Positions 4,468-43,227 of a DNA stretch of 64,000 bases are shown here, piece after piece. This DNA is from Sipunculus nudus (Eukaryota > Annelida > Sipuncula > Golfingiida > Sipunculidae). Where the stretch lies: NCBI GenBank assembly GCA_026874595.1, contig CM049306.1:19461019-19525018 (forward strand), given 5' to 3'. The position numbers and the translations under genes are program-made. Under the pieces are notes generated by a model. The model was given only the letters and a program-made list of their open reading frames with translations. It was not told where the DNA came from and searched no databases. Within the stretch, counting starts at the first letter, position 1. Every line of letters begins with the position of its first letter.

Positions 4468-5509
4468 CTAGAATATCAGCAGAAGCCGACAAAAGCCCTC
4501 AGCCAAAAGAACAGTGTTTAGAGGTGCTAACAGTAACAAGTACTAAATATCTGTTCTCACATGGATGTATATCTGTACATGTCTCAGTTATAAATTTAAA
4601 ATGGAGAGGTATGTACCATGATTCATAACAATCCACCAAATGCTTCCTGAAAAATAAGCTTCTAATTTTTATTCTATTATAAGCTCTGTGACCTTGAAAA
4701 GTAGGTCAAGGTCACCCATCTTCGAACATGAACGAGATTTTTGGCGATATACATCTTCACCAAAGAAATAAAATTCCTATTGTAAATCCTTTTAGAGATA
4801 TCCTGCTCACAAGGCCAAAGTTGAAAAATCCAAGAAAAATTCAATAAAAAATAAAAAATTGCAGGTGGTGCCCCCAAACTTGTGCAGCAGTTACAGACCA
4901 TCAGTCCCTATGATCATAGTAAGTATTGTGAAAATCCATCCAATGGTTCCTGAGAAATAAGCTTCTAAATGTTTTTTCTATAATCAGCTCTAAAACGTAG
5001 AAAAATAGGTCAAGGTCACCCATCTTCGAACTTGACCGAGATTTTGTCAATATACATCTTCACCGAAAAAATAAAATTCTCACTGTGAATCCTTTTCGAG
5101 ATATCCCGCTCACAAGCCCAAAGTTGAAAAATCCGATAAAAATTCATAAAAAATCAGAAATTGTAGGTGGCGCCACCAAACTTGTATAGCAGGTACAGAC
5201 TATCAGTCCCAATAATCATAGTAAGTTTTGTGAAAATCCACCAAATGGTTCCTGAGTAATAAGCATCTAAGTGTTTTTCTATAATCAGCTCTAAAATGTT
5301 GAAAAATAGGTCAAGGTCACCCATCTTCGAACTTGACCGAGATTTTGTCGATATACATCTTTACCGAGGAAATAAAATTCTGACGGTGAATCCTTTTCAA
5401 GATATCCCGCTCACAAGGTAAAAGTTACGGACGCCGGACGGACGGACGGACGGACGGACGGACAGCTTGGGTGATGACAATAGCCCATCAGCCTAAGGGC
5501 TGAGGGCTA
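4468..5509 (+). mobile_element. Family B element, nested in family C
   Basis: The 5' end is ACTAGAATATCAGC followed by AGCCCTCAGCC. The 3' end is AGCCCATCAGCC-TAA-GGGCTGAGGGCTAA, a hairpin containing the inverse of the 5' motif. The core has three tandem units of about 305 bp, each with GGTCAAGGTCACCCATCTTC, TGGTTCCTGA and GATATCCCGCTCACAAG. A run of ACGG repeats (5438-5463) precedes the hairpin. The homologous stretch at 15.8 kb lacks the element and gives the empty site. Confidence 0.8.
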
Positions 5510-12125: not shown

Positions 12126-13000
12126 ATTCCAGTTGCCATGCATCAGTCTCAGGAAATGAAACATGAGATCATTCCCACCACAACTTGAATGCAGGAGTCA
12201 CCACACCATTCTTACTGAAACATGAGATCAGTCCCTGCATATCCTCACTGTAGGAGTCACCACATCACTCTAACTGAAACATGAGATCAGTCTAAGCACA
12301 GCCTGACTGTAGGAGTCACCACATCACTTTAACTGAAACATGAGCTCAGTCCCAGCACAACCTGACTGCAGGAGTCACCACATCACTTTAACAGAAACAT
12401 GAGATCAGTCCAAGCACAACCTGACTGTAGGAGTCACCACATCACTCTAACTGAAACATGAGATCAGAGCCAGCACAACCTGACTGTAGGAGTCACCACA
12501 TCACTTTAACTGAAACATGAGATCAGTTCCTGCATATCCTCACTGTAAGAGTCACCACATCACTCTAACTGTAACATGAGATCAGTCCCAGCACAACCTG
12601 ACTGTAGGAGTCACCACATCACTCTAACTGAAGCATGAGATCAGAGCCAGCACAACCTGACTGTAGGAGTCACCAAGTCACTCTAACTGAAACATGAGAT
12701 CAGTTCCTGCATATCCTCACTGTAAGAGTCACCACATCACTCTAACTGTAACATGAGCTCAGTCCCAGCACAACCTGACTGCAGGAGTGACCACATCACT
12801 TTAACTGAAACATGAGAAAGTCCCTGCACAACCTGACTGCAGGAGTGACCACATCACTTTAACTGAAACATGAGATCAGTCCCTGCATATCCTCACTGTA
12901 AGAGTCACCACATCACTCTAACTGAAACATGAGATCAGTCCCAGCACAACCTGACTGTAGGAGCCACCACATCACTCTAACTGACACATGTGATCAGTCC
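12126..13000. repeat. 59-bp minisatellite, about 14 units
   Basis: The unit is typified by GGAGTCACCACATCACT, AACTGAAACATGAGATCAGT and CC(A/T)GCACAACCTGACTGTA. GAGTCACC (or a variant) recurs at 12194, 12253, 12312, 12371, 12430, 12489, 12548, 12607, 12666, 12725, 12784 and 12842-12960, that is every 59 bp with one 58-bp unit. A variant with TGCATATCCTCACTG occurs at 12236, 12531, 12708 and 12884, so the last part has a three-unit (177-bp) higher order. 59 is not a multiple of three and all frames are broken. Confidence 0.95.
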
Positions 13001-14577
13001 CACTAGAGCAAAATGCAATATTCATTTCTATATGTATGTTAACACACATGCCAAACACTGTTACAAAGTCACTGTATGAACAGTGGTGTGTTCCAAGCTA
13101 CATATATCTGTCACAGGTTTATACGGGATCTACATTATTAAGATACATTATTATGGAATGTTTTAGGAATGTTTTATAATGACTCTGATAGGATCTGCCT
13201 ACATTTAACATACTTCTCTGCCACATTTTTACAGTCTATGATAACTATTTGGGATTATTATATGTTTGTCAACTACACGAGTCACAGGTACATCAACTAT
13301 TGTTAACAATTGCATCTTCGTCAGTGTGATGGATAATGTGTACCTGTGGATTTGAATGATTATATTTTTATGACTTCCACAAAGTGATGTAAAGTACAGT
13401 TGAAAATCTCAATTATAGACACTAACAGGACTTAGACTTTCACAATTATATAGAGATGTCTTTATTAGAAAGGTTACAGACATCTAAAGCTACTTCTCAC
13501 ACCATGACAAATGCTGCAAGTATCAATAACGGACTGATGGACAGAATACAGAGATACAATGAAAGGGTGGTTTAACTGTATTATGCATTCAGGGGCATAA
13601 GAGGGTGCTCAGGGTATGTTGGATTCTTATATACATATACTTTTACATATATAATCAGCCTACTTTAATATCCTTGTACCATTTTAAGACTGAAAGCAAG
13701 GAAAATTTACTTTCATGCTTTCATTTTCTCAGTAGATATTTCTGTCTGGAATGTTTTCCCTCAATATAACATTCAAAGTAAGATGAAGGTGGGGGGGGGG
13801 CATGGCCCCTTGCAGCAACCCCCTGGATACGCCACTGATGCATTTATTACATGCCTGGTTCAGATACAATATCTTCAATGGAGAAAGCAACATTAAAAAA
13901 AGACATCCCTGTGCTACAATCCAAATAATTCAGCTTTCCCACTAACCATTTTGATATTTTTCTTTAAGAGGAGGAGGCCGATAAAGTCTAATTTACCAGC
14001 CTGGATTTTCAAAAATAAATGAAAAATGAAAATTAATCAAAATTATTTGAAAATTTGCTGCAAGACTGAAAGTCAATACATAATTTTTAAATTCTATCAC
14101 AATCCTTTTTGATAACAACTGTATCATTGTAAAGTGCACCAAATTTGTGCATTAATTCTCACATGCATTTACTTACTAAATAATAAATTATACTGGAATA
14201 CCATTCATATGTTGAAGCCACCTGAGACACAGAAATGTAAATGCCTCATCATTCATATCACTTGTAACTCCATTATGGTCAGGCTTGTTATTATGACAGA
14301 AGAAACATCCTGACAAAATACCAAACATTTACCATTTCCCACTGACAAATTGAGCTTTGCACAGTTTTCAAAGGTTCTGGAACTGCTGTCCACACTTCCT
14401 GCATGAGTAGGAACCCATCAATTTTGCACCGAGGTCAGCCTAGTGTTTCCAACTCCTGCTTTACACTGCGACACGTTCTCAGTGGTAGCCTGTGACCCCT
14501 GTCAAGGTCAGCAGATTTGTTTGCATGCACCATAGTTTTCTAGTTTCACCATTTAAACAGAAAATAATTCAGCAATG
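13001..14577. other. Non-coding flank, probable 3' side of the minus-strand gene
   Basis: Unique sequence. It includes 10 G at 13791-13800 followed by CCCCTGGATACGCCACTGA, which resembles the end of a widespread invertebrate repeat (compare 42097-42280). No further coding exon is seen. The 3' UTR of the gene, if the TGA at 14578 is used, would lie here. Confidence 0.4.
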
Positions 14578-14806
14578 TCAATGCAGCAATCCTTGTATAC
14601 TTTTATCCAAAGCAAGTCTCTCTTGGCTGCGGTCGACCTGTAGGTTTGATATTGATGGGTCGGTTTGGCCTGCCGGTGGTCTGTGTTCCAGCGATGATGG
14701 GGCTGTCTTCTCACAGCTGAAGCTGTGGGATGTTGTGTGTGTGCTTGGGGGATGAGATTTCCGCCGTTTTTTTTTACCTGCCACCTTGGATGATGGGCTC
14801 TCCTGA
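14578..14806 (-). CDS. Terminal exon of the same gene, basic and Ser-rich C-terminus
   Basis: The exon follows a strong pyrimidine tract and TTCAG acceptor; the first base T completes a Ser codon from the previous exon. It reads QESPSSKVAGKKKRRKSH, then PPSTHTTSHSFSCEKTAP, and runs to a TGA at 14578-14580 after SIQGLLH. GKKKRRKSH is a polybasic cluster that could be a nuclear-localisation or phospholipid-binding segment (inference). A possible donor CTACAG|GTCGAC inside the exon would end coding at NLQ and splice onward, so the exact C-terminus is open. A TCAGTCAG acceptor gives a possible 4-nt shifted choice, but only the first keeps frame. An AATAAA (minus strand) occurs near 13851, about 0.7 kb downstream; a nearer signal was not seen. 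Confidence 0.82.
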
Positions 14807-17781: not shown

Positions 17782-17911
17782 CTAAGTTGTGAAGTGAGTG
17801 GTTCTCTGTGAGTGAGGGGATGGTCCCAGTTTGGAGGGGTGGGGGATCTGTTGGGACCCCACGGCTCTCTCTTGACAGCCTCCAAATGTTTATTCACCAT
17901 TGGATATGTCC
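17782..17911 (-). CDS. Internal exon of the same gene, Pro/Trp-containing
   Basis: This 130-nt exon follows a CACTTCTCCAG acceptor in phase 1 and ends AACTTAG|GTAAGA, a near-consensus donor, in phase 2. It encodes 42 full codons: TYPMVNKHLEAVKREPWG, then PNRSPTPPNWDHPLTHREP, then LTSQL. The mix of Trp, His and Pro, and the codon use, look coding. The other two frames have stops. RSPTPP is a typical proline-directed kinase site. It fits between its neighbours without phase conflict. No domain is recognised. Confidence 0.9.
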
Positions 17912-19103
17912 CTGGAGAAGTGTATAAGTAAAATATTAACTGTTTGTTCACTTGCAGTTAGTGTCTTCAAGAATGAAGTAACCATACTACAGTGAAGTAT
18001 CTGTTCACCGCGCTTTGATAACATTTGAGTAACTTGGCAGACTGGTTGTGGTTCTCAGTGTTGGCTGAGGTATGAGGTACTCTGGATGTGTTTAATGCCT
18101 TGTTCATCACAGAGTTGACTCTGTGTTATAATCTTAATTATATCTTAACTATCTGACTTATTTGTTAACAATGAGCCTTTTATACTTGTATGTACTTGCA
18201 AGAAGCTCTGGATGTATCTGATTGTATTCGAAAATACCAACAATTCTATGTTAACTGACCAGATAACTTTTGATCAAGCAGACACACAAACATGCATGCT
18301 CACTAGCATACAAAAGATTATTATCTTTAGTCATACATATGTTAGATTTGAGGTTCCAGGAGCACAGCTGTTTGGCTCATCTTTATCTACACCTGTTCAT
18401 CTATAAGAGATAATTCCTTGCAGGACTTACAATATATGAGAACCTTCAAGGTCAGAGAAGAAAGTAAATATGAATAATCTCAGATAATTATGAGCTGAGA
18501 GACAGAGCTTTGAAGAACTGTTCTGGTTATCAATGATAAATGGTAACAATGCTGAGATGTCTTTGCGACTTGCCTGTACACATATTTATTGATAGAAATG
18601 TTGATCTCTGTGACTACAACATGAAAAATATATTAGTGCAAGAGAGGTTTAGGTTTTTTGTGGACATTTTGCTTTGACATACATGAGAACAATAAGATGA
18701 TAAATGAAATATCGCTGCTGATTGAGACTCTTGAAGAAAGCAGCTCTCATCCGTCAAAATAACAATGACATTTCTTAGGAATACATGGAGAAGAAGCATT
18801 TATCTTGGGAAACTGCCCTAGTGTCACTGATCAATAAAGTATATAAAACTTAGGTATGAGTTGAATTTCCCCACCAGCATCTCAAAAAGGTACAACAAAA
18901 TGGGAAAATCTTGATAGAACATAAGAGATACCCTCAACTAAACCCCATGACTACTGGTTATGAAATCTGGATTCATTTTAGCACTTTTAATATTAAATTT
19001 AAAATCCAGCTTAATAAAAGCATATAATTCTTATTGAATTCTGACCAGCTTTCATCAATCAATATTCATTAGAACCTGTGTGTGTATTTGTATATTATTA
19101 TAC

Positions 19104-19321
19104 CTGGTTTTTAATTATGTAAACAGCCCCTTTGTTTTCATGTGAGTTCATTTTATCTGTTTTTGGTAGTGGCCTCATCATATTTCTGTGTGTGACATTA
19201 CCTGTTTTTGGTAGTGTGCCCTGATATTTCTGTCTGTGTGTGTGTGTTTTACCTGTTTTTAGTAATGGCCCCTTGAACTGTGTGTATGTATATGTGGGTA
19301 CATGTGGGTCTGTGTTGTTAC
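19104..19321 (-). other. In-frame tandem repeats of exon 3' end with alternative splice donors
   Basis: Past the donor at 19322|19321 the sequence repeats the motif CACTACCAAAAACAG|GTAA. Further donors read AAACAG|GTAAAA (last exon base 19253) and AAACAG|GTAATG (19202). A fourth copy has CAG|ATAAAA (19157) and so lacks GT. A looser CAG|GTATAA lies at 19104. Spacings of 69, 51 and 45 nt are all multiples of three and the frame stays open to a stop at 19098. The extra peptide would be a series of KGPLPKTG-like repeats (KGPLLKTG, QGTLPKTG, RPLPKTD). All GT copies before 19157 would keep phase 1 and join the next exon correctly. Whether they are used cannot be seen from sequence alone. Confidence 0.6.
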
Positions 19322-19490
19322 CTGTTTTTGGTAGTGGCCCCTTGATTGGAGCGAGTTTGCTTGGGGAGCTCGGCCGCCTCTGGTGACCTTTCCTCGACGT
19401 AGTGTCCTCACAATCTGTGGTCGATAAACTACGATGACGCTCAAACCCACCTCTCACCATGGGGAGCTGGTTGTCTCCTCCCTGAGAGCC
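19322..19490 (-). CDS. Internal exon of the same gene, Ser/Arg-rich
   Basis: This 169-nt exon starts after TTGTTTTCAG in phase 0 (GSQGGDNQLPMVRGGFERHR...) and ends AAAACAG|GTAACA in phase 1 after GPLPKT. It contains a basic, Ser-rich segment (HRSLSTTDCEDTTSRKGHQR, then RPSSPSK) with likely phosphorylation sites: RSLS resembles a basophilic-kinase site and SSPSK a proline-directed one. GC content is clearly above the surrounding intron. The unusual point is downstream: the last 15-20 nt plus donor are repeated three or four times in the same frame (see next entry), so the 3' border may vary. Phase agreement with the exons on either side supports its use. Confidence 0.9.
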
Positions 19491-20796
19491 CTGAAAACAA
19501 GAATTCTGAATTCAGATATATGCACTAGCATTTCAGGATTTCAGAAATTGTTACTTAAATTATACCATGATTTTGAGTATTTCTGAAAATCTGGGTAACT
19601 TACAATGTAAAATTGTCATTAACTGGCAATTCATACAAGTACATGCAATGTAGTTGGTACCTATACCATTGTCCACATCAACATATGCTATTATGATAAG
19701 TTTGCATTTCTTATTCTTGTACGTATATTGTGAGAGGAACCCTATGTGTCACCTTGTGCCATATTCTTCATATTTGTGTCTGTACAAGAAAACATACACA
19801 AGAGTCATTTTAACCCCACCCTGTTTTTTCAAATGTACTCAACAATAGGTGGTACATCCCCATGGGTGAAAAGTATGTCACATCAGCTGATTCGGTATGC
19901 CTTTACATGAATAACATACACACATAGACATATTTATGATGATTATGAGGTAAATATTGATTACATTTTACGACTGTAATCTACACCTCAGCATAAGAGG
20001 TAGGTAAATACAGGTAATCAAAACAAACAAAGGCTTCATCTGCATTACCCAAATTTACCAGCGTGGGTTTGAAAACTATTTACAATTACAGCAGAAAATA
20101 ATAACCCTCAAAAACTCTTAAATACCGGATATAAATTAAGCTATGATAAGGAATCCCATCTTGAGATATCCAGACAAACCATGCTCATAAGCATGGCCTG
20201 ATTTTATAGTGTACAGTGAATTTATACTCAGTCCTGCTGCTAATACCTCAACCTAAACCCTGCCGCTGAGACCTAATCTAAATCAGCTCACATTCATGAC
20301 TAATATTTTTGTCTTACCTGCATTGTTAAAGTGTAACAATCCTTTGGATTTTGTGTGCACGTCTTGGTAGATTTCTGCTCACTAAAGTATGTACACATAC
20401 TAAATATATGTACATGTATTCCCAGCAGATCCTTGTAGGTGCATGCTCTAATAGAAATCAATAAATGTTAACTCTAGTTGGTCCTTCTGTGTAATGTAAT
20501 TATGCTGGTTAACACGCGTGGTCTGAGGGTTCTGTATACAGTTCTCATACACAAAGGCTTGTGCTGACCAAACACATGCTGACATGTATGTACTGCACAC
20601 CTGTGACACATGCACAATCACATGTGTAATAACACAGACTGTTGTATATAGCACTCTGCATGCTTGTTACACTCTTTACATTATTATCATGAATACTGTC
20701 ACTGTTGCTATCAGTCAGGAGGGTTTATTTTTAGATTTCATAGATAGTGTCTACAAAATAATGCCCCTTTTGTATACAGGTAAATCAAGCTTGTTC

Positions 20797-22854
20797 ATTG
20801 CTTGCCGGAATCAAAGATTTCGGCAAGCATATTGCTCAGTTGCGTATGTCTGTTTGTCTGTTTGTCTGTTTGTTTGTCTGCACTCTCCTGGCCACAATTT
20901 TGCCACAATCACCTTGAAACTTACAGGGATGATAAAAAACATAATTTCTAGGTGCCCTATTGTTTTTGGTTAAAATAGGTCAAAGGTCAAGGTCAAGGTC
21001 ACGACAGGTATGGTTAACGGTTTTTGCACTATAACTTCGCCATAAATAGGCTTATCCACTTCTGCAATAGCTCATTTTTTTCGTCATCACCTGGCCTTTC
21101 TTTTGACATGTAGCTTACTTAAATTTGCTGTTACCATGGTTACGCAATTTTGGGGAGAAATCATGGAATTTCCTGATATTTTTCAAATTTGCAGCAATCG
21201 TACTGATTCTGAGATATTTTATGTAACACAAGAATATCTCGAAATTGTTTTTTCAGATTTTGGAAATGGCCGCCAGGGGGCGTTGCAGATGAAAAAACAT
21301 GAAAATTTGTTTTGGTGCTATACCTCCAGAACTATTAAACATTGGGCCATTTCCATCCCAGCACCTTCAACTGGGGTCCATGGGCTTATTTTTGCGCATA
21401 GGTGCCAAAGTGCGCTATTGCCAGATTTCTCTATTTTTGGGGTAAAACTTTTGAATTTTGAAAATATGCAGTTTTCAGCTTCTAACTCTGTCAGTTTTTA
21501 TGCTGGAGAGGTCAATTTTTTTGCATCTTGTAGCCCTTGGTGAGCTCTCGGTGATCCAATCAAAAATCTTGCAAAATCTCGCACCGTTTCTCGTCAAACG
21601 AGAGTCTTCGAGATTTCATTAAATATGACCTACAGGTTGCATTTTTTTAACAATGGCTTTGAAATTGATATATTTTGTGTTATTTATAAATATCTCGAAA
21701 TCAGTTTTTCATTTTTTGGAAATAGCCACCAGGGGGCGTGGTACCTGAAACACTGTAACATATCATTTTTCTGCAATATCTAAAATAATTTTAAACATGG
21801 CACAATTTTTATCGTTGTATCTTAAACAAGGAACAATGGCTTATTCCTCCGCACATGTAGCTTTGTGCTGCCGTTACCATGGTTACCAAATGTGTGGGTT
21901 AAACTTGACGATCTGAAAATATGCAGTTTTTTGCTTCTATCTCGGTTAATATTTATGTTTCAAGGGTCTAGTTTTTTGCATAAGGCTGTTCCCCTTGGTT
22001 TTAAGTCATTCAATTGCAAGTCTCGTCAAATTTCGCTCGGTTTATCGTCAAACGAGAAAAAACGAGATTTCACGGAAATGCTTATAACTCGGCGACTTTT
22101 ACAGCTACACAGGTCTAGTTTTCGGCATTTCATAACATATGACCAGCTTGACACGCCAGAAAAAAAATCAGGCCAAATCTCGCACCATATCTCGTCAAGC
22201 GAGAAAAAAACGAGATATCATGGAAATGCTTATAACTAGGCGACTTTTACAGCTACTCAGGTCTAGTTTATGGCATTTGGTAACATTTGGCCAACTTGAC
22301 ATAGTAAAACTGCGATACTTGGCGAAATCTCGCACTATATCTGGTCAAATGTGGAAAAACGAGATTTCACAGAAATGCATATAAGTCGGCGACTTTCACG
22401 GCTAGACAGGTCTAGTTTTTGGCATTCATTAACATTTGGACGGCTTGACATGACAAACCTGCAAGACTGGCCAAATCTCGCACCATATCTCGTGAAACGA
22501 TAAAAAAGGAGATTTCACAGAAATGCTAATAACTCGGCAACTTTTACAGCTAGACATATGTAGTTTTCGCCATTTCATAACATTTAGAGAGTTTGATATG
22601 ACAAATCTACAAGACTGGCCAAATCCTGCACCATATCTCGTCAAACGAGAAAACACGAGAGTACACGGAAATGCTTATAACTCGGCGACTTTTACAGCTA
22701 GACGGATCTAGTTTTCGCCATTTTGTAACGTTTGGCCGTCTTGACATAATAAAACTGCTCGTCTTGCCAAATCTCGTACTATATCTCGTCAAGCGAGAAA
22801 AAAACATGATTTCACGTAAATGCTGATAACACGGCGACTTTTGCAGCTAGTTTG
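20797..22854 (-). mobile_element. Family A element, 3' end and 148-bp array
   Basis: Read on the minus strand, the 3' end is the hairpin GCTTGCCGAAATC-TTT-GATTCCGGCAAGC at 20797-20830. Inside are AGGTCA-rich sequence (20980-21003), two GG(C/G)GG-type units with CCAGGGGGCG (21268 and 21725), and six tandem 148-bp units (21990-22850). No 5' terminus is seen, since a second family A element abuts at 22855. The 146-codon frame at 21103-21543 is repeat sequence and not a gene. Confidence 0.7.
21990..22850. repeat. 148-bp tandem array with hairpin in each unit
   Basis: The marker TATAACTCGGCGACTTTTAC recurs at 22083, 22231, 22380, 22528, 22676 and 22825: spacing 148, 149, 148, 148, 149. Each unit has TCTCGTCAAACGAGA, able to pair CTCGT with ACGAG around CAA, and TCTAGTTTT. 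Units differ by about 10-20 percent by eye. Confidence 0.9.
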
Positions 22855-22934: not shown

Positions 22935-25165
22935 ATGTTTGTTGGTTTGTTTGTCTGCACTGTCCTGGCCACAATTTTGCCACAATCACCTTGAAACTTT
23001 CAGAGATGATGGAGAATCTAGGGCCCTATTGTTTTTGGTTAAAATAGGTTAAAGGTCAAGGTCAAGGCCATCGAAAAACCTCGAAACTTTATTTTCCTCA
23101 TAACTTGGTCAAAAATTGTCGTATCAACCTCATTCTAACCCCATTTTGTTCGTCTTTCCATTGCCCATATCCTGGTATGATCAACCTTGTCAGTATGTCT
23201 GTCTGTTTCAGGGTTGTTGTCAATTTTGTCAACGGCCTTGTTGTTCTTTCTGACATTTAGCACTCTCCATGCCACAATTTTGCCACAATCACCTTGAAAC
23301 TTTCAGATATGATGGGCAACGAAAATTTAGGTGCCCTATTATTTTTGGCCCAAATAGGTCAAAGGTCAAGGTCGAGGTCATCAAAAGTATACAAAACGGG
23401 TTTTTCTTCATATCTTTGTAACTGTTAGTCGTATCTACTTGAACTATAGCTCATTTTAATCGTCATCCAATGGACTTTCTTCTGTTGGGTACTTGACTCA
23501 AATTTGCCGTTTCAATGGTAACACATTTTCGGGGAAAAATTATCATATTTGAAAATCAATGGACTAATTTGTCAGTTTTAATCCTAGAGAGGTCTAGTTT
23601 TTTCCATTAGGTTGCATTCGTTTAATACTACATGATTTTATTAAAAGTCTGGCAATATCTCGTAAGATAGCTCATCAAACGAGATATTTCGAGATTTCAT
23701 TAATCTTGCCCTGGAGGCCATAGTTTTGCAGGAATTTTTTTAAAACTGATATATTTCAAGTCTTACCCTAGTATCTCAAATTTGTTTTTTTTTTCATTTT
23801 TTTGGATAGGGCCGCTAGGGGGCGCTGGATGCGAACCTCCCCAACATATCATATTTTGGCCATATCTCCAACATTATAAGCCTCAATTACATAAACTATA
23901 GCTTATTTTCTTCCTCTGAGTCTTCTCCATAACCTGGTGTAGTCATCTGGTCACAATTTTGTGTCACTTTGTCAGTGTGTCTGTCTGTTTGATAGTTGTC
24001 CTCAAATTCGCCTGCTTGCTCTTGCGTCTCACATATAGCATTCTACAGCCCACAGTTTTGAAAGAATCCTTTTGAAACTATTACATCTTAAGTCTTACAC
24101 TAATATCTCGAAACCAATTTTACATTTTCCGGATATGGCCGCTAGGGGGCGCTGAACTCGAACCTCTCCCAACATATCATGCTTTGGCAATATCTCCAAA
24201 ACTATAAACCTCAGTTGCATAAACTGTAGCTTTTTTCTTTCTTTGAGTCGTCTCCATAACCTGGAGTAGTCATCTGGACTCAATCTTGATTCACTTTGTC
24301 AGTGTGCCTGTCTGTTTGTCAGTTGTCCTCAAATTCACCTGCTTGCTGGTTCTTGCGTCTCACATATAGCATTCTATAGGCCACAGTTTTGACGGAATCC
24401 TTTTGAAACTATTACACCTTATGTCTTACACTAATATCTCGAAGCAGATTTTTCATTTTCCGGATATGGCCACTAGTGTGCGCTGCACACGACCCTCTCA
24501 CACATACCCTTGTATTGGCCATATCTCTACACCCAAAGCCTCAGATACATAAACTATAGCTTATTTTCTTCCTTTGAGTCTTCTCCATAACCTGATTAAG
24601 GCATCTGGTTTCAATCTTCTGTCACTTTGTCAGTGTGTCCATCTGTTTGTCCGTTATCCTCAAAGTCGCCTGCTTGCTGGTTCTTACGCCTTACATATAA
24701 CATTCTACAGGCCACAGCTTTGACGGAATCCTTTTGAAACTGGGACATCTCTTGTCATACACTAATAATACGAAACGCGTTTGTCGTTTTTTGGAATACG
24801 TCCGCTAGAGGGCGCTACAGTCGAACCTCCCAAGTATATCATTAATTCGCCATACCTCCAAAACTATTAATCTAAATTACATAAATTATAACTCATTTTC
24901 TTCCTTTGAATCTTCTCCATAACTAGGTTAAGTCATCTGGTGTCAATCTTGTCTCACAAAGTCACTATGTCTGTCTGTTCGTCTTTTGTTGTCAGTTTTG
25001 TCTGCTTGCCTGTTCTTTTGTCTCATATGTCATTCTACGGGCCACATATTCTCAGCAATGTCCCTGAGAGTCATTCCATTAATAGAAAACCGACACTATG
25101 TTCTTTCTGTCCGTCTGTGTTTCACTTCCGATTTCCGGCAAGCGTTCGACCTATGGTCGTCTAGT
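22855..25165 (-). mobile_element. Family A element, both ends present
   Basis: On the minus strand it begins ACTAGACGACCATAGGTCG (hairpin CGACC/GGTCG) then GCTTGCCGG at 25165-25134. It ends with the hairpin GCTTGCCGAAATC-TTT-GATTCCGGCAAGC at 22855. The core is four tandem units of about 330 bp (starts of the CTTCTCCAT cue at 23921, 24248, 24579, 24911). No coding capacity. It fits the 5'-hairpin, inverted motif, tandem core, 3'-hairpin plan of families B, F and G. Confidence 0.75.
23811..24950. repeat. 330-bp tandem array of family A
   Basis: Spacing is 327, 331 and 332 bp. Each unit contains CTTCTCCATAACCTGG, TCACTTTGTCAGTGTG, a C/T-rich GTCTCACATATA(G)CATTCTA and CCGCTAGGGGGCGCT. The same unit in inverted orientation fills 1-400. 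Confidence 0.9.
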
Positions 25166-25295: not shown

Positions 25296-28234
25296 AACAA
25301 GGCCTACAGGCCTAATGCAAACCTGTGAAATGAGATTACACCAGGTATAATGCTTCAATGCTGGACCATTACTTTTCAAGAACATGTGTAACATGTATAT
25401 GTACAATGCAAATACTAAACACTTAGAACAAGAAACAATTAAACAAACGTCACTGCTGCAATTCTGGCATGGGTGCACACAACACAAAAACTAGAATATG
25501 GGTATTCAATAACAAGCGACTACGTGTATCTGTCAAAATCAGAGTGGGAAAGGTGAAGTGAGGCATAGATTGAGTGGCAAGGGGAAATAGAGTGAGGTGT
25601 GTTGCATAATAGCCTGGATGTCTGCAGCCGAAATGTGTATGTAGGTGGCGCCACCTGTCATAAAATCGAGAAAGCTGTCCAGGATGTATACACATGCAAA
25701 ATTTCAGGTGGATAAGTCCAACCAATGCAGAGATATGTGTGTTTTTATCCCAAGGCAGATAAACAGACGGACGCTGTGCAAAAATGGTAGCAGTTGGCGC
25801 CACCAATTTTGTGTATGAATAAGAGATATATGAGATCTATACACATGCAAAATTTCAGGGGAATAAGTCAAACCAGTCCTGAGATTTAAGCCTGAATGTC
25901 TGCAGCATATACATAAATGTAGGTGGCGCCACCTGCCAAAAAAATCCAGAAAGCTATCCAAGCTGTATAAACATGCAAAATTTCAGGTGGATAAGTCAAA
26001 CCACTACTGAGATATGAGTGATTTTAGCCCACGGCAGACAAACAGACGGAAGCTGTGCAAAAATGGTGGCAGGTGGCACCACCAATTTTGTGTATGAATA
26101 AGAGCTATGTGAGATCTATACACATGCAAAATTTCAGGGGGATATGTCAAACCACTGCCGAGATATGAGTAATTTTGTCCCAAGGCAGATGAACAGATGG
26201 ACGCTGTGCAAAAATGGTGGCAGGTGGCATGCGCACCACCAGTTTTGCATATGATAAAGAGCTATGGGAGATCTATAAACATGCAAAATTTTGGCCCAAC
26301 TGGTCAAACGGTTCCCGAGATATGAGCTTGGATGTCTGCAGCTTAAACGTGAACGTAGGTGGCGCCACCTGTCATAAAATCAAGAAAGCTGTCAAGGATG
26401 TATAAACCTGCAAAATATCAGGTGGATAAGTCAAACCACTGCCGGGATATGAGTGATTTATTCCCAAGGCAGATTAACAGATGGACGCTGTGCAAAAATG
26501 GTGGCAGGTGGCACCACCAGTTTTGCATATAATAAAGAGATTTAGGAGATCTATACACATGCAAAATTTTGGCCCAACTGGTCAAACAGTTCCCGAGATA
26601 TGAGCTTGGATGTCTGCATCTTAAATGTGAATGTAGGTGGCGCCACCTGTCATAAAATCAAGAAAGCTGTCCAGAATTTATACACATGCAAAATTTCAGG
26701 TGGATAAGTCCAACCAATGCAGAGATATGAGTGTTTTTATATTCCAAGGCTGATGAACAGATGGACGCTGTACAAAAATGGTTGCAGGTGGCGCCACCAT
26801 TTTTAGTGTATGTTAAAAAGCTTTCCAATGGCTACATTTGTGCAAAATCTTAAGCCTTATCCGTCAAACGGTTCCCAAGATAAGTGGGTTTATGTGTGGA
26901 AACAGACACACAAATGGATGCTGGGCAGAGAGGAAAGGTCAGAGGTCAACTAAAAATGAGGGCGCAGCAGTTCATATGTGACCAATCATAATTCCGAATT
27001 TTAAAAAATTCTGCCCAGTGGTTATGGAGGAGTTCTCCGGAAACCTATGCGGCAATCGCAGCAGCGTCGGTGTCTGACTGAAAACATAGTATCCGCAAAA
27101 CTTTGGCGGATACAAAGATTGTAGCTGGCACCACCAGTATGTCAAACAAACCCCTCCTATGAAATAAGCAGGGACATACACTGTGCAAAAATTATTGTAG
27201 GTGGCGCCACCAGTTTTGTACACTATCAAGCTACCCGATATGTATAAACATGCCCCATTTTAGGCTGATGTATCAAATTCCTCTGTAGAAGGCGCATACA
27301 CTGCAAAAGTCAATGTAGGTGGCACCACCTGTCTTGTAAATGAAAAATACCATCAAAGACGCATAGACAGGTCAAAATATCAGTCCAATACATCAAAATT
27401 CCCCAGAGTTTGATGCACTGAGCTGACAAGGCTTAGGTGAGTAAGGCAGTTGCCTCCCGAGTGACCTGTGACAAATTGCTGCCTCAAGCTACTGCACTGA
27501 GTGATCCCTTGACCTGCACCTGGCTAGACTGAGTAAACTTTTGACTTGTACCTAGCTGCACTGAGTGAACTCTTGACCTGTTGCATAATCTGACACAGTT
27601 GGCAGTCTGCCAAAGCTATAAATAGATTCAGGCTGCACTTTGATGCCAAATATGATGCAGTGAGCAGTCTGCCAAAGCTATAAATAGAATGCAGCTACTT
27701 CACTGAGTGTACTCTTGACCTATACCTGGCTTTTCTTCTTCCAATCCTGGCACTGTGCCAAAACTATTTATAGAGCTGACATCATCTTGGCTAATGGCCA
27801 ACATCAAGGCACTGGCAATCTGCCAATGGTAAACCAAGTGCTGCCATCTGTACACAAAAGTGGTCCCTACTTGAAATAACTTTGAAATTTATTTTCCCAA
27901 TACAAAATGCTTTCAGCTGACTTTTTATAAGAAAGAAATCAGGAATATATGTAAAACTATTATGGATACATACTGAATGCAAAATTAAAATACAGATATA
28001 TCTCATTGATGGAAAATTCTTGAATTAAGTTGAGTAGGGATACCAATAATTTATAATCCACGTACAGTTGTCTTTATATGGCCAACGAGAGCTGAATATC
28101 CATGATTGTAACATTGCCTGGTATGATTAATAACTTAAATCATAAATCTAGATTTTTTAAAAGCTTTAAAAAAAAACTTTCTTTTCAATATTAACCAAAG
28201 ATAACCTGAAATCTAAATGTCTAGTTGCATGATG
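25296..28234 (+). mobile_element. Family E element, 3' truncated, carrying family G
   Basis: The 5' end is ACAAGGCCTACAGGCCTAA (hairpin AGGCCT/AGGCCT) followed by TGCAAACCTGTG. Family G is inserted at about 25490-27113. After it the E body runs through CACTGAGTGAACTCTTGACC units and TATAAATAGA motifs, and stops at about 28234 without the E 3' hairpin. The same body with the same G insertion is at 31.67-34.70 kb; a copy without G is at 52.9 kb. Confidence 0.75.
25490..27113 (+). mobile_element. Family G element nested in E
   Basis: The 5' end is ACTAGAATATGGGTA with a hairpin GTAGTC/GACTAC best kept at 45.7 kb, then GTATC(C)G(C)CAAAA. The 3' end is GTATCCGCAAAACTTTGGCGGATAC, given here as stem GTATCCGC and GCGGATAC. 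The core is a tandem array of about 279-bp units (GATGTCTGCA cues at 25616, 25894, 26330, 26609), each with AGGTGGCGCCACCT. There is no ACGG microsatellite, but CAGACGGACGCTGTGC recurs. Confidence 0.75.
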
Positions 28235-39930: not shown

Positions 39931-41500
39931 ATCAAGGCCAACCGGCAAAATGTGAACCTGTGCAATGGGATAAACATCAGGTATAATTCTTCTCTCAGTG
40001 ATAACATACTTATTTGAAAAGTACTTCATTACTTTTCAAGTACATGTGTGAATTATAAATGCATAAAGCAAGTACTAAATATTTTGAACCTGAGTTTAAG
40101 CACCAGTTACACAAACATCACTCCTGAAATACTGCATGGGTGTACACCACCCAAAAATGATTGTACTTGGTGCCACCATTCTTGTGTACAAAAAAAACCA
40201 TCAATAATATATGCATGGACATATAAAATTTCATGCAGATGCATTTAACCACTCTTGAGTTATTAGCACAGATGCATGCAATGGAAAAGCAATTGTAGGT
40301 GGCCCGCCAAGTCTTGTACCATAAAAGGTATCCAAGATGTAGGGACATGCACCATTTCCGGCTGATATATCCAATCCCTTCTCACAAACAAGCAGGGTGA
40401 TACACTGAAAAAAATCACTGTAGATCAACAGCATCAAAGATGCATAGACAGACCAACATTTCAGGCCATATTACATCAAACTAAGGTGTACTTGGCTGAC
40501 CAAGCCCAGCTGACCAAGCTAAGCCCCCCCCCCCCCCCCCCCCCCCCCCCCAGTCAACTGTAGGTAACAGATACGGCGCAACTGCACCGACTGAACTCTT
40601 GGCCTGTTGCCAAATTTGATGCAGTTGAAATAGTTGGCAGTCTGCCAAAGCTATAAATAGATCCCAACAGAAACTTAGCCTGTCACCAAATCAGAAATAG
40701 TTGGCAATCTGCGAAGCTATTAATAGATACAGACAAAATCTGGGCCTTTTACCAAATCTGTTTAAACTTATTGAAAGACTTGCTACAAAACTTTTTCAAG
40801 CTGACATATTCATAATATTTGTTTAATCAAATTGTTTAGAATAATAACATATGTCTACTGCAGCCTTATGATTAATATAGACAGAACAATATCGGAGGAA
40901 AAGATTTTCATAGGTTTTCTAGCTTTCCCCCGATAAAATGTGAGTCAATGCATATGGCACCACAAAAAGCTCAATTTCAAAATATTTGACAGGTGACTGA
41001 TATTGGCATAACATTTGGTAATGCTAGCTCCAGCTGTTAGTGAGATATTATGGGGAAAAAATACAGAAGATGGATGACTCCATAAAGAAAAGGGTCAATG
41101 CAGGTGGTGCCACCAGAACCTTAATTTCAAATATGAGTCATGTGACAAACATCTACATCTGGTGATGATAGCTCCAGCCATTTCTGAGATTGTAATTTAA
41201 TGTGGTAAATGACTAACTTCAGCTTCCTGTAACCTGGCAAAAAATCAATGAACTGGAACTATTTGAACAAACCTGAAAGACCTTAGGAACCATTTCTGTT
41301 AAATATTAACACTTTGGCTGCACAGTTTCAGAGATGAGGATTTTTAAAGGTTTTCTAGCTTTTCCCTGTAAATTTACATTTAAACCCAGATGGCTGCAAA
41401 ATAAGCTCAACCCAATAAAGTTTAACATGTGACTGATTCTTCCAATAAAATCTGGCGCCGCTAGCTCTGATGGTTTTTCAGATGGGTTAACGTATGATGA
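39931..41500 (+). mobile_element. Family E element, degraded, without G
   Basis: The 5' end is diverged (CAAGGCCAACCGGC ... TGTGAACCTGTGCAATGG). The body has GGTGCCACC-type words, TATAAATAGA motifs and ACCTTAATTTCAAATATGA. The 3' hairpin is lost near GGGTTAACGTATGATGATG. It contains a run of 28 C (40524-40551). Older than the copies at 31.7 and 52.9 kb judging by divergence. Confidence 0.6.
40524..40551. repeat. Run of 28 C
   Basis: Uninterrupted poly(C) of 28 bases. Length is likely to vary and may be an assembly estimate. Confidence 0.9.
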
Positions 41501-41607: not shown

Positions 41608-41629
41608 GGGGGGGGGGGGGGGGGGGGGG
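41608..41629. repeat. Run of 22 G followed by GGA repeats
   Basis: Poly(G) of 22 bases then AGGAGGAGGGA. Potential quadruplex. Confidence 0.9.
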
Positions 41630-42448: not shown

Positions 42449-43227
42449 CTTGTTCTCTATTGGAGACAGAGGGGTGGCTCGTAAACCCTGCCTGAGAGCC
42501 GAGACACTGTGACTGGTGACAAGAGGGCTTTTGCTGCCTCGGTGTATTGCTAGTATTTCTGCTGCATCTTCTGCCACCTGGTGGGGTGACACTTCACAAC
42601 GAGCGGAGAGAAATGAAGCATGAGCGGGACTGCCTGGCTCCCTCCTTAGTGACGGAGGGGGACTGCGAATAAGGAAACTGTGATTTGGGACAGAGTCTGC
42701 CGATGCCCTTCTGACATCACAGTGTTGTAAGACGACATGTTTTGGGGATTCTTGTAGCACTGGTTCCATCATTGCCTCATCCACTTGTTGACACTTAACA
42801 ATTGCGGGATTGTCAGTACGTGATAAATGTATTTTTTCTAATGATTCGATCACCTCCGCTTCAGTCTTTTTCCTGGGTGTAACCTGTATGTTATCTGTAT
42901 TTATAGCACCACTGATAGAACCTTCTTTTGAGCTTGTTTCTCCACTTAACAACAACTCACTTCCCTGGTCTGAGTCCAGCTCTGCACCAACTGTCGAAGA
43001 ATGAGGCAACATATTACTGATGGCCTCATTTTGAAATGCTCCGCTGGACAGGTCATGCGAACTTTTAGCCTTTTTTGTTTTAAACAAGTCTGCTATGAAC
43101 CCAAAGGGGTTCCGCCTGGTTTTAGGGTTTGGGTTGGTGAGGCTTGGTGTGTCATCACCACTAGGGGGATCTGAGGACATGCTGGTGTGGTTAATACCAA
43201 GATGGTGCTCCAGAACCTGTACACATT
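42449..43227 (-). CDS. Large internal exon, Ser/Pro-rich protein with NPF motif, unknown family
   Basis: This 779-nt exon is open throughout. It starts after a TATATTTCAG acceptor in phase 1 and ends AACAAG|GTAAGA in phase 0, giving 259 full codons. The first residues (CVQVLEHHLG) may be the end of a folded region. Next comes a basic stretch, KTRRNPFGFIADLF followed by KTKKAK, and then long Ser/Thr/Pro-rich sequence with SPPPS, EPGSP and PLSP sites of the kind proline-directed kinases use. NPF tripeptides are known ligands of EH domains (Eps15, EHD, intersectin), so an endocytic or membrane-trafficking role is possible, but one motif is weak evidence. No signal peptide, transmembrane segment or catalytic motif is visible. 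It is the longest coding exon in the window and free of repeats. The reading frame is sure; the function is unknown. Confidence 0.9.

Follow-up and report, generated by a model that had tools for sequence, protein, structure and literature searches.

The minisatellite of the human gene IFI6 (also G1P3 or 6-16) has a short, 12-bp repeat unit. Two downstream units of this minisatellite are reported to act as alternative splice donors, so that three mRNAs arise (PMC4526556, citing Turri et al. 1995). Amphioxus genes contain duplications of intron-exon boundaries that resemble minisatellites and are termed mirages. They are described in Adh3, with units of 10-72 bp, and in the globin genes BflGb6, where two haplotypes have 6 and 3 units, and BflGb9, in which a 3' exon boundary is duplicated; splice signals are present in many copies, yet regular splicing is reported to be undisturbed (PMC3087553). 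In human paralogs, internal tandem repeats located at exon-intron boundaries can change splicing (PMC2812944), and intron gain by tandem duplication carrying splice or proto-splice signals is described for potato RdRp (PMC4974935) and Drosophila (PMC2891723). We describe an array at a predicted exon end of Sipunculus nudus (assembly GCA_026874595.1), located on the minus strand of a 64,000-nt stretch of contig CM049306.1 (positions 19,461,019 to 19,525,018; hereafter the window), in which the exon end and its splice donor recur in tandem. All array and exon coordinates are window positions on the minus strand.

Like the reported amphioxus mirages, the S. nudus array has a unit that spans an exon-intron boundary, is of similar size, and is local to one gene (all four of four genome-wide matches to its core lie there); unlike them, all of its GT donors keep phase, it is described from one assembly, and that assembly is far larger than an amphioxus genome. 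With IFI6 it shares several repeats that have an intact donor (three of four copies) and in-frame isoforms, here joined in silico to the same stop; it differs in that its units measure 45-69 nt, have CA-rich linkers, and carry donors predicted from sequence, whereas donor use in IFI6 is reported for mRNA. In structure, the array fits both precedents. The human paralog repeats described in PMC2812944 lie in segmental duplications, whereas the S. nudus array and the two exons searched are single-copy in the assembly. The potato and Drosophila duplications produced new introns or intron positions; here there would be only extra donors in one intron. Among the matches listed from the open-licence literature, no comparable array was found beyond the amphioxus, human and intron-gain cases, which does not prove absence. 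The preliminary description of this site called such a duplication uncommon, a term that needs qualification given the amphioxus mirages (PMC3087553) and the human IFI6 donors (PMC4526556).

Four copies of an exon end and its donor

The array (19136-19345) consists of units of 69, 51 and 45 nt plus a fourth copy, delimited here to 45 nt; every copy contains approximately 24 nt of exon end, a donor position, and a CA-rich intron start. In the first copy, ACCAAAAACAG is followed by GTAA, with the last exon base at 19322 (donor D1); in the second, ACTAAAAACAG is followed by GTAA, with the last exon base at 19253 (D2); and in the third, ACCAAAAACAG again precedes GTAA, with the last exon base at 19202 (D3). 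The fourth copy, at 19157, has ACCAAAAACAG followed by ATAA, and its CAG/ATAA (a slash marks the exon edge) indicates a lost donor GT; CAG/GTAA is intact in the other three. The motif had been placed at exactly these positions by the preliminary description, together with spacings of 69, 51 and 45 nt, all divisible by three, and an open frame; the sequence bears out each of these, the frame being open to 19098. This stop-to-stop frame (19098-19511; 137 codons) continues the frame entering at 19490 and has 74 of its codons past the first donor, while stops end the two remaining frames after 1 and 21 codons.

The repetition is well above chance: the exon end aligned with the next 221 nt gives a best local score of 44, compared with a maximum of 28 among 2000 single-base shuffles. 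The 24-mer GGGGCCACTACCAAAAACAGGTAA, allowing up to 3 mismatches, has four matches in the whole 1.43-Gb assembly (0, 2, 2 and 2 mismatches), all inside the array, and the reversed 24-mer pattern used as a control has none. A 341-base DNA query of the array region matches only itself, in a search that skips simple repeats and very common words, and a second copy of the locus was not found in this one assembly. Based on the confinement of the core to the array and the self-only DNA match, we take the array to be a local duplication and not a dispersed element.

The four cores are alike at 19 to 23 of 25 nt. By hand count, copies 2-4 differ from the 25-nt core of copy 1 at eight positions, of which six change an amino acid (one being the lost GT) and two are silent; these differences show no sign of protein constraint, though their number is small. 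The site had previously been proposed as a possible young minisatellite expanding over an exon edge. Expansion over the edge is well supported: each unit starts in the final 24 nt of the predicted exon sequence and extends into the CA-rich intron start. "Young" is not supported, as neither the core identities nor the loss of one GT suggests a very recent event. A fifth, degenerate copy (19072-19135) with CAG/GTATAA at 19104 is doubtful: it is out of phase, MAFFT aligns it only with a 7-nt insertion, and it is not among the genome-wide pattern matches. Tandem Repeats Finder at score 40 did not list the array, in our opinion because the linker lengths vary.

Predicted gene model and joining of the donors

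Codon use and splice-site scoring give a chain of exons with matching phases: 43216-42449, 19490-19322, 17911-17782, and 14806-14578 with a stop. The chain depends on a home-made exon scorer that combined generic frequencies of splice-site bases and amino acids with the codon usage of 30 kinase loci, three of which have a stop inside the match. The upstream coding exon (42449-43216, its 5' edge approximate) is a long open frame with the top exon-scan score; it ends in phase 0 at AAG/GTAAGA and fits the phase of the 19490 exon. The latter (19322-19490) has the acceptor TTCTTGTTTTCAG and ends at D1, its canonical 3' edge, in phase 1. At its start there are two in-frame acceptors 9 nt apart (19490-19481; TTTTCAG/GGCTCTCAG/GGAGG), either of which could serve. 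The next coding exon (17782-17911; score 16.9, coding percentile 95.2) scores no higher than many other candidates in a lax scan and is third in the strict list. The terminal coding exon (14578-14806; coding percentile 96.1) has a strong acceptor, CTTTTTTCTCCTTCAG, set at 14806 from an AG located 4 nt upstream of the scan's 14802 because the phase then fits.

In silico joins place D1, D2 and D3 all in phase 1, compatible with the 17911 exon, as the preliminary description had proposed for every GT donor; in the predicted model the frame continues from there to the stop at 14578. Counted from where the 43216 exon begins to the common stop, joining 19322, 19253 or 19202 to 17911 yields 431, 454 or 471 residues, respectively. 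The possible exon extension to D2 (19253-19321; CAG/GTAAAA) adds 69 nt, or 23 residues, and the further possible extension to D3 (19202-19252; CAG/GTAATG) adds 51 nt, for a total of 40 residues. The preliminary description had forecast isoforms with 0, 1 or 2 extra KGPLPKTG-like repeats; the additions are in frame, but the extra peptides are 23 and 40 residues long because the CA-rich linker is translated along with each such repeat. It had also named 19104 among the junctions to be counted, but this site is 218 nt away and out of phase with the 17911 exon, and joining it would shift the frame.

The tail of the predicted protein is rich in Ser, Pro and Lys. Three queries, namely the 19490 exon, this exon joined to the 17911 exon, and the large upstream exon, yielded nothing above the curated Pfam cut-off, and a PDB search with the large upstream exon gave no match at E up to 10. 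The weak Pfam matches below the cut-off were Gram_pos_anchor (E 0.22), MutS_II (0.12) and Fimbrial (0.23), the first being an LPXTG-like match to LPKTG that we take as chance.

Probable origin and possible use of the donor copies

Coding character separates the exon from its possible extension. The reference set comprised 544 overlapping 120-nt stretches that are open on this strand and lie outside the array and the exons of the gene. Against this set, the exon to 19322 reaches 0.35 bits per codon (99.6th percentile; its last 40 codons alone, 98.9th), and the extension to 19202 only 0.02 bits per codon (68th percentile). Against 594 stretches, with exons and array included, the values are the 99.7th and 63rd percentiles. 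The linkers between copies read as CA-rich intron. Based on these properties, the original edge is most likely 19322. The coding-like exon, the extension that is not, the CA-rich linkers and the mostly amino-acid-changing differences together suggest growth of the array from this edge into the intron.

We therefore favor, with a probability of about 0.52, a mirage-type minisatellite in which 19322 is the original and main donor. A segment containing the last ~24 nt of the exon, its donor and the CA-rich intron start would have been copied in tandem into the intron, the probable cause being slippage or unequal exchange aided by the CA tracts. Most transcripts would be expected still to use 19322, although U1 could bind any of the three in-phase donors with near-equal pairing, and D2 and D3 might be used at a low or tissue-dependent level. 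Such use would lengthen the Ser/Pro/Lys-rich tail by 23 or 40 residues with no frame shift, and would thus be tolerated rather than required. This reading draws on the uniqueness of the core to the array, the contrast in coding character between exon and extension, the copy without GT, and the amphioxus mirages of like size, which are reported to leave regular splicing intact. It is also supported by a survey of the 12 ends of six predicted exons (one end being the stop, and two of the exons not shown to belong to this gene), among which only the 19322 end has a copy within 1000 nt. The 60 flanks of the 30 kinase loci contain no such duplication, a weak control given that match ends are mostly not exon edges. 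Among 757 AGGTR sites in 204 kb there are 34 site-and-copy pairs (at least 19 of 24 nt alike, 20-320 nt on), three of which are this array; many of the remainder share a few sequences or a spacing of ~278 nt. This genome thus contains local copies of AGGTR sites that are not rare.

The possibility that D1-D3 form a working multi-donor device of the IFI6 kind, with all three used substantially, possibly under regulation, and tails of +0, +23 and +40 residues that have a role, is tentative and less probable. The graded alternative-splicing device offered as a reading in the preliminary description is likewise possible, given the near-equal U1 pairing and the frame preserved to the stop. U1 5' end pairing is nearly equal at D1, D2 and D3 (-8.0, -8.3 and -8.3 kcal/mol), compared with -9.4 at donor 17782, -9.5 at 42449, -7.2 at 19104 and -1.6 kcal/mol at the GT-less copy, where the stretch 19157-19201 would end; D1 and its donor copies all lack G at +5. 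All three donors keep the frame to the stop, with spacings in multiples of three and an open frame, and repeat units are reported to act as donors for three mRNAs in IFI6 (PMC4526556). As part of such a device, the CA-rich sequence behind each donor could bind hnRNP L-like proteins, given that hnRNP L and LL bind CA repeats (PMC3823766). Against this stand the extension's lack of coding character, the mostly amino-acid-changing copy differences, and the fact that a frame open to the last GT donor is not rare: it occurs in 0.20 of dinucleotide shuffles and in 13 of 119 A-rich, T-poor stretches of 120 nt on the window strand (exons and array excluded). It is unlikely that the exon itself has been lengthened, with 19202 now the main donor and the copies translated as internal repeats; the sequence is open and in frame to 19202, and SRSF1 is reported to activate intron-proximal donors (PMC5585400), but the extension's 68th-percentile coding score compares poorly with that of the exon proper. 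Least probable by far is a seed of new short introns or cassette exons, with inter-copy segments spliced out from the GT of one copy to the AG of the next. Its boundaries, AAAAACAG/GTAA, match those of the tandem-array intron-gain model (Rogers; Zhuo et al. 2007, both cited in PMC3087553, Zhuo also in PMC2812944), but the segments are 51-69 nt without a pyrimidine tract before the AG, and phase would be lost with a 25-nt cassette running from the AG at 19278 to 19253.

Several observations weigh against the mirage-type reading. All three spacings would be multiples of three with a chance of 1/27 (1/9 for the two spacings between GT donors), and the shuffle probability of an open frame falls from 0.20 at 19202 to 0.085 at 19157 and 0.017 at 19098. 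Spacing and openness, treated as independent and uncorrected for the choice of this site from 64 kb, combine to P ~0.02 for three GT donors and 0.003 for four copies. Stretches of the strand outside exons and array are open in 835 of 8824 cases (9.5%) at 120 nt and 111 of 8750 (1.3%) at 224 nt, and among A-rich, T-poor ones 3 of 65 are open at 165 nt and 0 of 16 at 224 nt. The frame to 19202 is thus unremarkable and that to 19098 unusual, with few comparisons; together with the in-frame spacing it is suggestive but not decisive. The 74 open codons and the three spacings divisible by three nevertheless exceed the usual free drift of an intron, and could mean that the extension is read. Moreover, in competition between donors SRSF1 promotes the intron-proximal site, whereas hnRNP A1 promotes the distal site (PMC5585400), and the SRSF1 preference would favor 19202 or 19253, provided that the splicing proteins of this animal act like SRSF1, hnRNP A1 and hnRNP L/LL. 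A more elaborate proposal, which we consider improbable, is that selection keeps the spacing in multiples of three, that the donors sit in hairpins (UACC-AAAAACA-GGUA, strongest at 19202) beside CA-rich sites, and that CA-tract lengths differing between individuals tune the number of repeats in the tail. Successive units differ in length by 18 and 6 nt; both values are multiples of six, which under this proposal are the only CA-slippage steps that keep the frame. Hairpins with the 7-nt loop AAAAACA and the intact donor in the 3' arm are predicted at 19333-19319, 19265-19249 and 19220-19194; in 32-nt pieces they have energies of -2.8, -1.3 and -6.1 kcal/mol, and the first intron base is unpaired with probabilities of 0.15, 0.10 and 0.00, compared with 0.22 at donor 17782. 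In 120-nt pieces, donors 17782 and 42449 are also largely paired; because the gene's other donors are not clearly different, the hairpins carry no weight in the argument. The fold of the whole array (z -1.6; 7 of 100 shuffles equally good) is not notable.

If the copies are used, the locus would offer a compact natural test of competition among near-identical donors in one intron, with three in-frame outcomes. If they are not, it would be another mirage, probably outside cephalochordates, suggesting that edge-spanning minisatellites arise more widely.

Neighboring features and other repeats

Upstream of the predicted gene, on the minus strand, there is an ankyrin-repeat exon (PF00023, E 1.2e-8) at window coordinate 91475-91339 (~7475-7339 of stretch L015); its phase is compatible, and it may belong to this gene. 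On the plus strand, left of the window, lies an exon-like stretch with a PAN domain (PF00024, E 4.5e-9) at window coordinate -55032 to -54754 (~4968-5246 of stretch L020).

Other repeats occur in the window. A 59-nt unit is repeated 14.4 times in tandem at 12157-13002, approximately 1.6 kb past the predicted stop. The predicted 42449-19490 intron contains large tandem arrays at 22017-22850, 23790-25046 and 25611-26804, with units of 148, 331 and ~278 nt, respectively, and further sequences of the 278-nt type are found at other places in the 204 kb covered. Unbroken runs of 28 C and 22 G are present at 40524-40551 and 41608-41629, respectively.
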